Below, in pieces: positions 6,463 to 10,982 of a stretch of 64,000 nucleotides of DNA. The position numbers and the translations under genes were made by a program. Source of the stretch: Rhodopseudomonas palustris HaA2 (GTDB lineage: Bacteria > Pseudomonadota > Alphaproteobacteria > Rhizobiales > Xanthobacteraceae). How positions within the stretch are numbered: position 1 is the first letter of the stretch; each line of letters begins with the position of its first letter. The DNA lies in NCBI RefSeq assembly GCF_000013365.1, contig NC_007778.1:2976001-3040000 (forward strand). Reading direction: 5' to 3'. The notes beneath the pieces are model-generated. The model saw only the letters and a list, made by a program, of their open reading frames with translations. It ran no database searches and was not told the origin of the DNA.

Positions 6463-6714
6463 TCAGTGCCGGCGGCGTTGCTTGCGCAGCTTCTTCTTCG
6501 CGGGCTGCGGCGCGGTGTACCACGGGTTTTCGATACATTCGGCGGCGCGGCCGGAGGCGGACATCCGGCATTGCGGGATCGACGTGTAGCTGCACTCGTC
6601 GTACCAGTCGCGGTAGTTGTGATAGACCCGCAGGCAGACAGGATAGTCGCGAGCCTCCGCGATCCCGGTCAACCCCAGCAGGGTCAGCACCCCGACCAGC
6701 AGTGTCTTGCGCAT
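6463..6714 (-). CDS. DUF3551 small secreted cysteine-containing protein (copy 1)
   Basis: This 83-residue protein starts at an ATG preceded by GAGGAG seven bases upstream. A signal peptide ends near AEARD, and the mature part carries spaced cysteines in PVCLRVY, DECSYTS, PQCRMSA and AECIENPWY, a pattern I recognise as DUF3551 of Bradyrhizobiaceae. The tail is very basic (KKKLRKQRRR). It is the downstream member of a tandem pair with the gene at 6741-7001, which shares the C-x-R-x-Y...C...Q-C...C-x-x-N-P-W-Y skeleton. The function of the family is unknown; the cysteines probably form disulfides in the periplasm. Confidence 0.82.
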   Translation of the reverse strand: MRKTLLVGVLTLLGLTGIAEARDYPVCLRVYHNYRDWYDECSYTSIPQCRMSASGRAAECIENPWYTAPQPAKKKLRKQRRRH

Positions 6715-6740
6715 TGTCGTCTCCTCGGTCGCGCGCCCGG

Positions 6741-7001
6741 TCAGCGCGTGCGCTGCCGCCGCGCCGGGCCGGCGGGCGGTTGATACCATGGGTTTGTGAC
6801 GCATTGCCCGGCGATGCCCTGGGCGGCCGGCTGGCATTGCTCGATCGAGACATAGCGGCACTGGTCGAACCGCACCGGACCGTAGATCCGCAGGCAGACC
6901 GGATAGTTGTCGTAAGGGGCTTGGGTTTGCGCCACGGCCGCCGAGGGCAGGGCTAAGGGCGACGCCAGGGCAGCCAGTAGAACCGCAGACAGGACGCGCA
7001 T
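6741..7001 (-). CDS. DUF3551 small secreted cysteine-containing protein (copy 2)
   Basis: This 86-residue protein has a signal peptide ending AVAQ, then the same cysteine skeleton as its neighbour: YPVCLRIYG, FDQCRYVS, EQCQPAAQ and GQCVTNPWYQPP. The two genes are only 26 bases apart on the same strand and presumably arose by duplication. It is the first gene of the pair. Its upstream region (7002-7190) lies next to the LexA-type sites at 7197-7229, one of which points toward this gene, but the distance of about 200 bases makes SOS control of it uncertain. No function is assigned to the family. Confidence 0.82.
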   Translation of the reverse strand: MRVLSAVLLAALASPLALPSAAVAQTQAPYDNYPVCLRIYGPVRFDQCRYVSIEQCQPAAQGIAGQCVTNPWYQPPAGPARRQRTR

Positions 7002-7187
7002 CGAAATCTCCGAAATGAGGGGCCGATCCAGCCGAAGCCCGGCACCCAGGCGGCTGTAGACTCATCGCTCATCCGGTGCGCCCGCGACTATTTTACGTCA
7101 AAGCGGCGGACAGCCGAAGGGTCATGGCTGAATAACGGGGATGTCGACGTTTTGTTAACGCTTCCCGAACGCCCCGATGCGGGTACC

Positions 7188-7229
7188 TTGACGTCAGAAC
7201 AAAATGAGAACAATGTTCTGCGTATGTTC
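7188..7229 (+). promoter_or_regulatory. Two back-to-back LexA (SOS) boxes with candidate promoter
   Basis: The alphaproteobacterial LexA site is the direct repeat GTTC-N7-GTTC. Here one copy is read on the minus strand as GAAC-N7-GAAC (7197-7211) and a second on the plus strand as GTTC-N7-GTTC (7215-7229), three bases apart. A -35-like TTGACG lies at 7188-7193, with a weak -10 CAATGT 17 bases later. Both boxes lie in the region LexA would need to cover. The site is 21 bases upstream of the 32-codon membrane peptide gene. What I see is the exact spacing of both repeats; LexA control is inferred. Confidence 0.75.
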
Positions 7230-7249
7230 ACGTGGTCAGGGAGCGGACG

Positions 7250-7348
7250 ATGTTGAAGATCTTCATTCAGGAAGCTGCGGCGTTGACGTCGATTGCGCTG
7301 TTCATCAGCATGGTGGCGGTGTGGGCCCAGGTGCTGCCGCAGCTCTGA
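7250..7348 (+). CDS. sidA: SidA-like SOS-induced membrane peptide (cell-division inhibitor)
   Basis: This 32-residue gene reads MLKIFIQEAA, then a single hydrophobic helix (about residues 11-27), and ends AQVLPQL. An AGGGAG ribosome site lies seven bases before the ATG. Two LexA-type boxes end 21 bases upstream. Caulobacter SidA is a 29-residue inner-membrane peptide under LexA control that blocks division through FtsW, and I recall its gene lying beside dnaE, as here. Size, topology, SOS boxes and location all agree, but I could not align the sequences, so the name is an inference. It is too short for most gene finders. Confidence 0.62.
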   Translation: MLKIFIQEAAALTSIALFISMVAVWAQVLPQL

Positions 7349-7526
7349 GCCGGCGGAAAGCGAAGCTGCAGAGCGAGGCGGCAACAGCGGGGATAAGGGT
7401 GCGCGGCTGGCTTGCGCGGCCGTGGCGGGCGGATCACCATTCCGGCCGAGTCGGCTGCGCTCAGCGCGCCGGCTGAGCACCTTCTCACCGCACGCCATTC
7501 ACGCCCGATCGAAAGCCGCACCGCCG

Positions 7527-10500
7527 ATGAGCCAAGCCGGATTCGTCCATCTGCACGTTCACTCGGCCTATTCGCTGCTGAAAGGCTCGATGAAGATCGC
7601 GCGGCTGGCGGACCTCGCCAAGGCCGACCACCAGCCGGCGCTGGCGCTGACCGACACCGACAACATGTTCGGTGCGCTGGAATTCTCCGATAAGCTCGCG
7701 GGCAGCGGCATTCAGCCGATCGTCGGCCTCGAACTCGGCATCGACTTCGGCGACCAGGATCCGACCTCACGCAACGCGGCGCTGGCGGCGCCGGCGCGGG
7801 TGGTGCTGCTGGCGACGCGCGAGCGCGGCTACCGCAGCCTGATGCGGCTGAACTCGCGGGCCTTCCTCGAAACCCCGGTGAACCAGCCGCCGCACATCAA
7901 GTTCGACTGGCTGGATGGCGAGACCGACGACGTGATCGCGCTGACCGGCGGGCCGGAGGGGCCGATCTCGCTGGCGATGCTGACCGACCCGGCGCTCGGC
8001 CGGCTGCGCTGCGAGCGGCTGGCGCAGGCGTTCGGCGACCGGCTCTATGTCGAGCTGCAGCGCCACAACACCGATGTCGAACGGCGCGCCGAAGCCGGCC
8101 TGATCGACATCGCCTACGACATGGGGCTGCCGCTGGTCGCGACCAACGAGCCGCATTTCGCCACCGCCGACGATTTCGAGGCCCACGACGCGCTGCTGTG
8201 CATCGCCTCCGGCAAGCTGATCGCCGAGACCGATCGCGTCCAGCTCACGCCCGACCACCGCTTCAAGACCCGCGCCGAAATGGCGGTGCTGTTCGCCGAT
8301 TTGCCGGAGGCGCTGGCCTCGACGGTCGAGATCGCGCAGCGCTGCGCCTATCGGCCGCTGACCCGCAAGCCGATCCTGCCGCTGTTCACCGTCGGCGCCA
8401 GCGTCAACGACGCCGAGGAGGCGGCCGCCGCGGAAGCGGCCGAGCTGCGTCGCCAGGCCGAGCAGGGGCTCGCGGACCGCATGCGCGTCCACGGCCTGTC
8501 GCAGGGCATGACCGAAGAGGACTACCAGAAGCGCCTCGCCTTCGAACTCGACGTCATCACCCGGATGAAATACGCCGGCTACTTCCTGATCGTGTCGGAC
8601 TTCATCAAATGGGCCAAGGCCCACGGCATCCCGGTCGGGCCGGGCCGCGGCTCCGGTGCCGGCTCGCTGGTGGCGTATTCGCTGACCATCACCGACCTCG
8701 ATCCGATCCGCTTCGGTCTGCTGTTCGAGCGCTTCCTCAATCCGGAACGCGTCTCGATGCCGGACTTCGACATCGATTTCTGCCAGGACCGCCGCGGCGA
8801 AGTGATCGAATACGTCCAGCACCGTTACGGCCGCGACCAGGTCGCGCAGATCATCACCTTCGGCACGCTGCAGGCGCGCGGCGTGCTGCGCGACGTCGGC
8901 CGCGTGCTGCAGATGCCGTACGGCCAGGTCGACAAGCTGACCAAGCTGGTGCCGCAGAACCCGGCCGCACCCGTGTCGCTGAAGCAGGCGATCGAAAGCG
9001 AGCCGAAGCTTCAGGCGTTTCGCGACGAGGACCCGGTCGTCGCCCGCGCCTTCGACATCGCGCAGAAGCTCGAGGGCCTGACCCGGCACGCCTCGACCCA
9101 CGCCGCCGGCATCGTGATCGGCGATCGGCCGCTGTCCGATCTGGTGCCGATGTATCGCGATCCGAAATCAGACATGCCGGTCACCCAGTTCAACATGAAA
9201 TGGGTCGAGCCGGCGGGGCTGGTGAAGTTCGACTTCCTCGGCCTCAAGACGCTGACGGTGCTCGACGTCGCGGTGAAGCTCTTGAAGCAGCGCGACATCC
9301 ATATCGATCTGGCGACGCTGGGAATCGAGGACCCGGTCAGCTATCAGATGCTGGCGCGCGGCGACGTGGTCGGCGTGTTCCAGGTTGAAAGCCAGGGCAT
9401 GCGGCGTGCGCTGGTGGACATGCGCCCCGACCGCTTCGAGGACATCATCGCGCTGGTCGCGCTGTATCGCCCGGGCCCGATGGCGAACATTCCGACCTAT
9501 TGCGCCCGCAAACACGGCGACGAGGAGTCGGAATATCTGCATCCGATGCTGGAGCCGATCCTGAAGGAGACCTTCGGCGTCATCATCTACCAGGAACAGG
9601 TGATGCAGATCGCCCAGGTGATGGCCGGCTATTCGCTCGGCGAAGCCGACCTGCTGCGCCGCGCGATGGGCAAGAAGATCCGCGCCGAGATGGAGAAGCA
9701 GCGTGCCATCTTCGTCGAGGGCGCGACCAAGAACGGTGTGCCGAAGGACTCCGCCGACACCATCTTCGATCTGTTGGCGAAATTCGCCGACTACGGCTTC
9801 AACAAGAGCCACGCCGCCGCCTATGCGCTGGTGTCCTATCACACCGCCTACATGAAGGCGCATTATCCGGTCGAATTCATCGCGGCGTCGATGACGCTCG
9901 ACCTCAACAACACCGACAAGCTGTCGGAATTCCGCGCCGAGGCGCAGCGGCTCGGCATCAAGGTCGAGGCGCCGTCGGTCAATCGCTCCGGCCCGACCTT
10001 CGAGGTCGGCGCCAACACCATCTACTACGCGCTCGCCGGCCTGAAAGGCGTCGGCCTGCAGGCGGTGCAGATGATCGTCGAGGCGCGCGGCGACAAGCCG
10101 TTCGCCTCGCTCGCGGATTTCGCAGCGCGGGTCAATCCGCGCGCGATCAACAAGCGGGTGATCGAAAGCCTCGCGGCCGCCGGCGCGTTCGATTGTCTCG
10201 ACAGTAATCGCGCGCGGGTGTTCGCCGGCGCCGACGCGATCATCGCCGCCTGCCAGCGCAGCCACGAGGCCGCGACCTCAGGCCAGAACGACATGTTCGG
10301 CGGGCTCGCCGACGCGCCGCAGGTGGTGCTGCCGCAGATCGAGCCGTGGCTGCCGGCGGAGCGGCTGCGGCGCGAATACGACGCGATCGGCTTCTTCCTG
10401 TCCGGCCACCCGCTCGACGATTACGCCACCGCGCTGAAGCGGCTGCGGGTGCAGTCCTGGGCGGAATTCTGCAAGGCGGTGAAATCCGGCGCCACCGCCG

Positions 10501-10982
10501 GCAAGGTCGCCGCCACCGTGGTGTCGCGGATGGAGCGGCGCACCAAGACCGGCAACAAGATGGGCATCATGGGCCTGTCCGACCCGACCGGGCATTTCGA
10601 GGCGGTGCTGTTCTCCGAGGGGCTCGCGCAATATCGCGACGTGCTGGAGCCGGGCGCCGCGGTGCTGCTGCAACTCGGCGCCGAACTGCAGGGCGAGGAC
10701 GTTCGCGCCCGCGTGCTGCACGCCGAGCCGCTCGACGCCGCCGCCGCCAAGACCCAGAAGGGGCTGCGGATCTTCCTGCGCGACACCAAGCCGCTCGATT
10801 CGATCACGAAGCGGCTGCAGCCGCCGGAATCGAAGGTCTCGGGGGGCAATATCGCGCTGGTGCTGAGGCTCGATCCGCACACCGAGGTCGAATTCGAGTT
10901 GCCGGGCCGGTTTCAGGTTTCGCCGCAGATCGCCGGCGCGATCAAGGCGGTCACCGGCGTGGAACTGGTCGAGACGCTGTAA
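7527..10982 (+). CDS. dnaE: DNA polymerase III alpha subunit
   Basis: This 1151-residue protein is the replicative polymerase catalytic subunit (DnaE1). The N-terminal PHP domain starts HLHVHSAYSLLKGS (residues 8-21). The C-family polymerase core has GRGSGAGSLVAYSL and the catalytic acidic motif PDFDIDFCQDRRGE beginning at residue 412. Tandem helix-hairpin-helix and OB-fold segments follow, with GKVAATVVSRMERRTKTGNK typical of the OB region. I start at ATG 7527 (MSQAGFVHLH), because sequence further upstream in this frame is shadow coding. Length and sequence fit DnaE1 rather than the mutasome DnaE2. SOS boxes upstream of the small gene could affect its transcription if there is read-through. 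Confidence 0.96.
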   Translation: MSQAGFVHLHVHSAYSLLKGSMKIARLADLAKADHQPALALTDTDNMFGALEFSDKLAGSGIQPIVGLELGIDFGDQDPTSRNAALAAPARVVLLATRERGYRSLMRLNSRAFLETPVNQPPHIKFDWLDGETDDVIALTGGPEGPISLAMLTDPALGRLRCERLAQAFGDRLYVELQRHNTDVERRAEAGLIDIAYDMGLPLVATNEPHFATADDFEAHDALLCIASGKLIAETDRVQLTPDHRFKTRAEMAVLFADLPEALASTVEIAQRCAYRPLTRKPILPLFTVGASVNDAEEAAAAEAAELRRQAEQGLADRMRVHGLSQGMTEEDYQKRLAFELDVITRMKYAGYFLIVSDFIKWAKAHGIPVGPGRGSGAGSLVAYSLTITDLDPIRFGLLFERFLNPERVSMPDFDIDFCQDRRGEVIEYVQHRYGRDQVAQIITFGTLQARGVLRDVGRVLQMPYGQVDKLTKLVPQNPAAPVSLKQAIESEPKLQAFRDEDPVVARAFDIAQKLEGLTRHASTHAAGIVIGDRPLSDLVPMYRDPKSDMPVTQFNMKWVEPAGLVKFDFLGLKTLTVLDVAVKLLKQRDIHIDLATLGIEDPVSYQMLARGDVVGVFQVESQGMRRALVDMRPDRFEDIIALVALYRPGPMANIPTYCARKHGDEESEYLHPMLEPILKETFGVIIYQEQVMQIAQVMAGYSLGEADLLRRAMGKKIRAEMEKQRAIFVEGATKNGVPKDSADTIFDLLAKFADYGFNKSHAAAYALVSYHTAYMKAHYPVEFIAASMTLDLNNTDKLSEFRAEAQRLGIKVEAPSVNRSGPTFEVGANTIYYALAGLKGVGLQAVQMIVEARGDKPFASLADFAARVNPRAINKRVIESLAAAGAFDCLDSNRARVFAGADAIIAACQRSHEAATSGQNDMFGGLADAPQVVLPQIEPWLPAERLRREYDAIGFFLSGHPLDDYATALKRLRVQSWAEFCKAVKSGATAGKVAATVVSRMERRTKTGNKMGIMGLSDPTGHFEAVLFSEGLAQYRDVLEPGAAVLLQLGAELQGEDVRARVLHAEPLDAAAAKTQKGLRIFLRDTKPLDSITKRLQPPESKVSGGNIALVLRLDPHTEVEFELPGRFQVSPQIAGAIKAVTGVELVETL

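Follow-up and report, generated by a model that had tools for sequence, protein, structure and literature searches.

A probable SidA orthologue behind facing LexA boxes beside dnaE in Rhodopseudomonas palustris HaA2

The closest described system to the gene reported here is SidA of Caulobacter crescentus, a peptide of 29 residues that is SOS-controlled, resides in the inner membrane and interacts with FtsW, as given in excerpts of PMC4211646. In the same excerpts, SidA and DidA are thought to keep FtsW/FtsI/FtsN inactive, and, beyond the gamma-proteobacteria, SulA is not broadly conserved (PMC4211646). Later models, which are not high-confidence, place SidA on TM7 of FtsW (excerpts of PMC13396833). 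YneA, SosA, ChiZ and DidA, compared here by description, are likewise small damage-induced membrane inhibitors of division that act at late steps or on the septal complex (excerpts of PMC13396833 and PMC4211646); as far as these excerpts go, YneA and ChiZ differ in carrying LysM domains, and DidA differs in being SOS-independent and in binding FtsN. A further relevant observation comes from ribosome profiling of Sinorhizobium meliloti, which showed translation of sORF25, a frame in the dnaE1 5'-UTR that had not been annotated (excerpts of PMC10117765).

The window, that is, the whole 64,000-nucleotide stretch of DNA that was analysed, comprises bases 2976001-3040000 of the complete 5,331,656-base genome of R. 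palustris HaA2. An initial annotation of this stretch had pointed to a short frame beside dnaE as a likely SidA homologue. Like SidA of C. crescentus, the window gene encodes about 30 residues with one helix and is under putative LexA control; it differs in length, with 32 residues vs 29.

The short gene and its operator

The sidA-like gene occupies positions 7250..7348 of the plus strand (32 codons, 7250-7345; stop, 7346-7348) and is unannotated. The encoded peptide, MLKIFIQEAAALTSIALFISMVAVWAQVLPQL, has 32 residues and a single membrane helix (top 17-residue hydropathy, 2.09), and it had no match in Pfam or NCBIfam at E 0.01. A Shine-Dalgarno sequence, AGGGAG (7238..7243, plus strand), lies 6 nt 5' of the ATG, so that the 32-codon frame with a good ribosome site and one helix was found as the initial annotation had described it. 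The gene for the DNA polymerase III alpha subunit, dnaE (7527..10982, plus strand, stop included), lies 178 bp 3' of the peptide gene. On the other side, a gene for a DUF3551 protein (6463-7065, minus strand) runs divergently to the peptide gene. In the stretch that separates the peptide stop from dnaE, positions 7384-7397 and 7447-7454 form (nearly) invariant base blocks in 14 genomes of the genus, and these could possibly be a LexA-independent dnaE promoter or an RNA element. No plasmid match was found.

Upstream of the gene, a -35-like element, TTGACG (7188..7193, plus strand), starts 9 bp 5' of LexA box 1 (GAAC-N7-GAAC, 7197..7211, plus strand). Box 1 lies in the spacer between this element and a candidate -10 hexamer, AATGTT (7212..7217, plus strand), which was assigned only from its position 18 bp 3' of TTGACG and reads TATGTT in some relatives. 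The hexamer overlaps LexA box 2 (GTTC-N7-GTTC, 7215..7229, minus strand), which faces box 1 across a 3-bp gap. A consensus scan for sigma-70 promoters and terminators found no promoter-like or terminator-like site. Both exact boxes and their separation by three bases had been read correctly at the outset, while the gap from the boxes to the ATG is 20 bases and not the 21 that had been given.

The arrangement is kept among relatives. TTGAC begins 8-11 bp 5' of box 1 in 30 of the 31 loci examined of L009-L041, the sole exception being a locus without an exact first box, and among 82 further loci, 66 have TTGA at most 25 bp 5' of their first box (in this set L075-L077 belong to the window's family and three genomes appear twice, as L042/L309, L043/L311 and L044/L099). 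Because this element is kept 5' of the first box, box 1 is placed in the promoter spacer. The facing pair with its 3-bp spacer, which could give tighter repression as the initial annotation suggested, recurs in 27 of the 31 loci. Outside the family a single box is more frequent: the 82 further loci have one box (65) or pairs that are same-direction (7), facing (6) or back-to-back (4). The half-sites of both boxes are invariant in the alignment of 14 genus genomes, and GGGAG precedes the ATG in all 16 genus loci (L009-L024). Box-to-ATG distances within the genus (-53 to -56, L009-L022) differ by non-multiples of three, which favours ATG 7250 over GTG 7232 as the start.

Genome-wide, exact boxes number 78+78, and the reversed pattern 35+35; the window itself holds three, vs 1.69 expected, and 23 of 100 shuffles reach that number, so that a single exact box is unremarkable. 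The facing pair is rare: in exact form it occurs once in the 5.33-Mb genome, and the remaining sites found have two mismatches. The window genome has one match to the LexA DNA-binding domain, in a gene that is also matched by the lexA model. Fifteen genome stretches, hand-picked among the boxes listed, were inspected, with distances taken to the first possible frame start. In these, exact boxes lie 33 bp 5' of lexA (the frame of which shows homology only from residue 29 onwards), 82 bp 5' of uvrA, 38 bp 5' of radA, 32 bp 5' of an rmuC gene and 49 bp 5' of a Mg-chelatase-like (comM-like) gene. Other picked boxes adjoin aceK, a Rieske oxygenase gene and an outer-membrane protein gene, for which we know of no SOS link, and further ones adjoin frames matching nothing in one or two libraries, or no frame (L392). 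Since some exact boxes adjoin genes without a known SOS link or no frame, a box alone is no proof. An exact box was also seen 23 bp 5' of a gene for a PA0069-family radical SAM protein (L382, G000:C1:1239272).

The strict pattern box-GGAG-ATG occurs five times in the window genome, and only the site at dnaE opens a frame that is both short and membrane-spanning. In Caulobacter genome G468 the pattern occurs twice, and again the dnaE site alone opens a frame that is short and membrane-spanning; the pattern missed the dnaE site in two other Caulobacterales genomes searched in the same way. In the window genome, an exact LexA box, GGAG and ATG also stand before function-unassigned frames of 82 residues (L434, G000:C1:2371901-2371954) and 164 residues (L432, G000:C1:2215175-2215238). 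Two Caulobacter genomes (L429, L430) have frames of 83 and 75 residues behind an exact LexA box, with the common stretch IAEAVLAGAWRTLRAAGF.

Relation to Caulobacter SidA and proposed function

Named Caulobacterales genomes were reached with a PilA query, and dnaE was then located in each. A 29-codon frame starting at ATG precedes dnaE in all eight genomes labelled Caulobacter, beginning 121-217 bp 5' of dnaE. The LexA box before this frame is exact in two of the eight and carries one mismatch in five; at the eighth locus (L423), where only exact boxes were searched, none was found. We take this 29-residue ORF to be SidA because its length, helix and LexA boxes agree and because the SidA gene of Caulobacter presumably stands beside dnaE; a literature text search for pieces of the sequence gave no match.

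A profile of 68 distinct peptides from the window's order, with no Caulobacterales among them, scored the frame of Caulobacter T5M6 at 22.7 bits, which 0/2000 shuffles reached (1998 scored; composition was preserved separately for the N-terminal part and the remainder). Ten peptides from Caulobacterales and allied genomes were compared with this profile: for nine, 0/2000 shuffles were as good, and that of Robiginitomaculum failed, with 153/2000 shuffles as good. In total, 21 of 22 loci from Caulobacterales and their allies score at least 12 bits. A search of 39 named genomes gave a frame of at least 9.8 bits in 36, although those loci that belong to the window's own order cannot count as independent of the profile (L409 coincides with L101, which was used in training). 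The score of Robiginitomaculum NORP39 was weak, and no frame was found in two MAGs, one of Methylobacteriaceae and one of Enterovirga. In pairwise alignment, the window peptide has E, A, L, S, A, F, M, A and Q in common with that of T5M6 (48/5000 shuffles as good), the match to Maricaulis was equalled by 0/5000 shuffles, and that to Brevundimonas aurantiaca was at chance level (2193/5000). Pairwise similarity to the T5M6 peptide is weak, and the homology rests on the profile and on synteny.

The comparison with Caulobacter that the initial annotation had suggested thus led to a 29-residue ORF at dnaE, recognised by a profile free of Caulobacterales, and the window peptide is profile-homologous to this ORF taken for SidA. 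The grounds for the original proposal, namely LexA boxes, about 30 residues with one helix and a dnaE neighbour, held when tested, and the reading as a likely SidA homologue is supported. The two loci differ in several respects. The window gene has exact facing boxes, whereas in Caulobacter T5M6, for example, both boxes point the same way and each carries one mismatch, and the conserved Trp column of the helix is without Trp in Caulobacter, where a Trp stands five residues earlier. The window genome has a single match to the FtsW/RodA family (SEDS), which aligns with the Caulobacter and Brevundimonas proteins taken for FtsW; Rhizobium tropici and Microvirga have one match as well, while three Caulobacter genomes and a Brevundimonas have two each.

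We consider it probable that the window gene is a sidA orthologue, encoding a LexA-repressed inner-membrane peptide that blocks septation after damage, probably via FtsW. LexA would silence the gene from the two facing boxes, one between the -35 and -10 elements and one over the -10 element and the start. In the established SOS pathway RecA triggers the self-cleavage of LexA, and DNA damage would release the gene by this route. The resulting short mRNA would be translated into a 32-residue bitopic peptide, with its N-terminus predicted in the cytoplasm from the Lys/Arg near it. In the inner membrane the peptide would contact FtsW, as SidA does in Caulobacter, and the septal FtsW/FtsI/FtsN complex would, on the same model, be held inactive until repair is finished. 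Damage induction, FtsW binding and division arrest by the window peptide are what we infer from Caulobacter SidA. The gene would be a well-supported new gene of the SidA kind, for which the division-arrest step is predicted.

The peptide might instead act on the membrane. TisB of Escherichia coli is an SOS-controlled, short, membrane-depolarising peptide. DinQ, also of E. coli, is an SOS-controlled, toxic, single-helix peptide of the inner membrane, and peptides of this type are under antisense-RNA control. Both resemble the window peptide, putatively an SOS-controlled short membrane peptide too, and differ in acting on the membrane, a comparison made by description only. An SOS-induced depolarising peptide of this type, not directed at the divisome, would have the same size, single helix and LexA control, but sequence and place tie the window peptide to the 29-residue ORF of Caulobacter, and the features conserved are a charged pair followed by an uncharged helix; we regard this alternative as improbable.

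The short frame in relation to dnaE

A different reading assigns the boxes to dnaE and sees the short frame as an upstream ORF, a leader peptide whose translation tunes dnaE expression. The frame is indeed found on the dnaE strand, 5' of dnaE, in nearly all loci where it was detected, the consensus scan found no terminator-like site between frame and dnaE, and the authors who described sORF25 suggest a uORF role for some 5'-UTR sORFs (excerpts of PMC10117765). However, the distance between frame and dnaE ranges from 110 to 590 bp over 36 loci, and it is the residues around a helix, rather than the codons, that are conserved. Moreover, conservation in the genus is poor behind the frame (0.69, vs 0.93 within it), and in Caulobacter the counterpart would be the trans-acting SidA.

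Loci of one family in the same order (code f11) also bear on this question. At L108 the TTGAC element, two boxes and the frame all point away from dnaE, i.e., the unit is inverted relative to it. In three f11 genera (L100, L104 and L108), the SidA-like helix forms the C-terminus of a longer frame behind LexA boxes, with lengths of 93, 103 (L100) and 114 residues; the starts of these frames are those we infer, and each frame could be shorter if an internal start is used. Counted from the ends of the dnaE-upstream stretches that were read, they lie at -440 (L100), -529 (L104) and -415 (L108, reverse strand). L104 scores 26.3 bits and L108 23.8 bits; L100 was placed by its RD motif, by eye. Since the unit is invertible relative to dnaE and carries an added N-terminal part, a protein function is suggested, which argues against a dnaE leader peptide, and we hold the leader reading to be quite improbable. 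A short frame at L100 was dropped from the profile as not of the SidA-like family, the 103-residue frame behind the boxes being the likelier gene.

To return to SidA, genomes of Rhizobium and Shinella have SidA-like frames of 28 residues before dnaE, those of Rhizobium reading MTDxIRDxAAFTS..., and sORF25 of S. meliloti is therefore probably the same gene. It is alike in being a translated, unannotated frame 5' of dnaE1, where the related Rhizobium and Shinella carry a SidA-like frame; the comparison is one of position, and sORF25 differs in that its authors read it as a possible uORF (excerpts of PMC10117765). sORF25 would thereby gain a likely identity.

Conservation and reach

The peptide was found in 35 of 61 near genomes at E up to 1: in 16/16 of the genus (own genome included), 15/21 of other genera of the family and 4/24 of other families of the order. 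At 36 of 37 loci read, which include matches as weak as E 0.5, the frame lies 110-590 bp 5' of dnaE with at least one exact box in the preceding 90 bp. The remaining locus (L045), a second match in genome G014, lies away from dnaE and was discounted as a chance match. For the genus, pN/pS is 0.135/0.390, and when 14 of its 16 loci are aligned, full conservation is seen in 24, 28 and 10 of 32 codons at codon positions 1, 2 and 3, respectively. Mean conservation in 14 genus loci is 0.93 in the frame, 0.69 in the stretch after it and 0.61 upstream of the promoter. The window frame is a real gene under protein-level purifying selection. Short frames are plentiful (120 of at least 25 aa overlap the first 14 kb), yet the idea that the frame is open by chance, next to LexA boxes serving dnaE, is already refuted because the protein is conserved across the order, and this explanation keeps practically no probability.

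When whole genomes of the class were searched with the 32-residue profile, the result was almost entirely noise: 96 of 289 genomes had a match at E up to 1, and the best outside the own genome had E 0.0015. The search was anchored at dnaE instead. Searching for dnaE only, which avoids selection by the peptide, gave a match in 107 of the order's 111 genomes and in 242 of the 289 genomes sampled from the class. All 107 loci of the order were read, together with 89 class loci outside it that were hand-picked among the matches listed, some being skipped, and that lean towards nearer relatives. Genomes rather than lineages were counted, and the window (L075) is one of the 107 order loci. L165, a locus of the same order that came up in the class search and has no exact box, was left out of both sets, and L183 was omitted as a repeat of L160.

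Within a span of up to 700 bp 5' of dnaE (800 for part of the named genomes), a LexA box followed closely by a one-helix frame of 24-50 residues was found at 47 of the 107 order loci and 17 of the 89 class loci outside the order. The corresponding numbers on the opposite strand were 4 and 0, and the mean in dinucleotide-preserving shuffles was 0.05 for both sets. In a five-fold cross-validation, with the peptides of the test loci removed from training, 53/107 order loci scored at least 8 bits on the dnaE strand and one on the reverse strand, this single locus being itself a family member; L129 and L302 have box and frame and score below 8 bits when left out of training, and L123 and L180 entered with an internal start, so that their frames are truncated there. 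Judged by sequence, a recognisable frame is present in roughly half of the order and in a minority of the loci sampled elsewhere, and the expectation of a short frame 5' of dnaE elsewhere in Rhizobiales was borne out for the sampled order to that extent. Where no copy is recognisable, the gene may have been lost or relocated, may never have been present, or may have diverged too far to be recognised.

We lean slightly towards an ancestral alphaproteobacterial SOS division checkpoint, in which a LexA-controlled orthologous FtsW inhibitor beside dnaE would be shared by Hyphomicrobiales and Caulobacterales, and probably by further orders, would have been lengthened N-terminally in one family, and would act in Hyphomicrobiales with FtsW as apparently the sole SEDS enzyme; on balance, we would also ascribe the gene's having stayed hidden to its small size. 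Hyphomicrobiales are tip-growing, and to our knowledge the damage-induced stop of division in rhizobia and their relatives has not been worked out. A conserved gene at a known place can be tested in laboratory strains at once. No paper on SidA homologues in Hyphomicrobiales was found among the open-licence papers listed, a scope outside which the original SidA paper lies, and the distribution of SidA-like genes in this order is thus likely new.

The 108 distinct peptides, ten of which were added to the residue alignment by hand, provide a natural alignment showing which residues matter. Asp or Glu stands just N-terminal to the helix in 95 of 99 aligned peptides, and Phe (91/106) and Trp (74/102) are conserved as well. 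Lys or Arg occurs in the first ten residues of 103/108 peptides and in the last ten of 14/108, and this concentration near the N-terminus suggests that the N-terminus is cytoplasmic.
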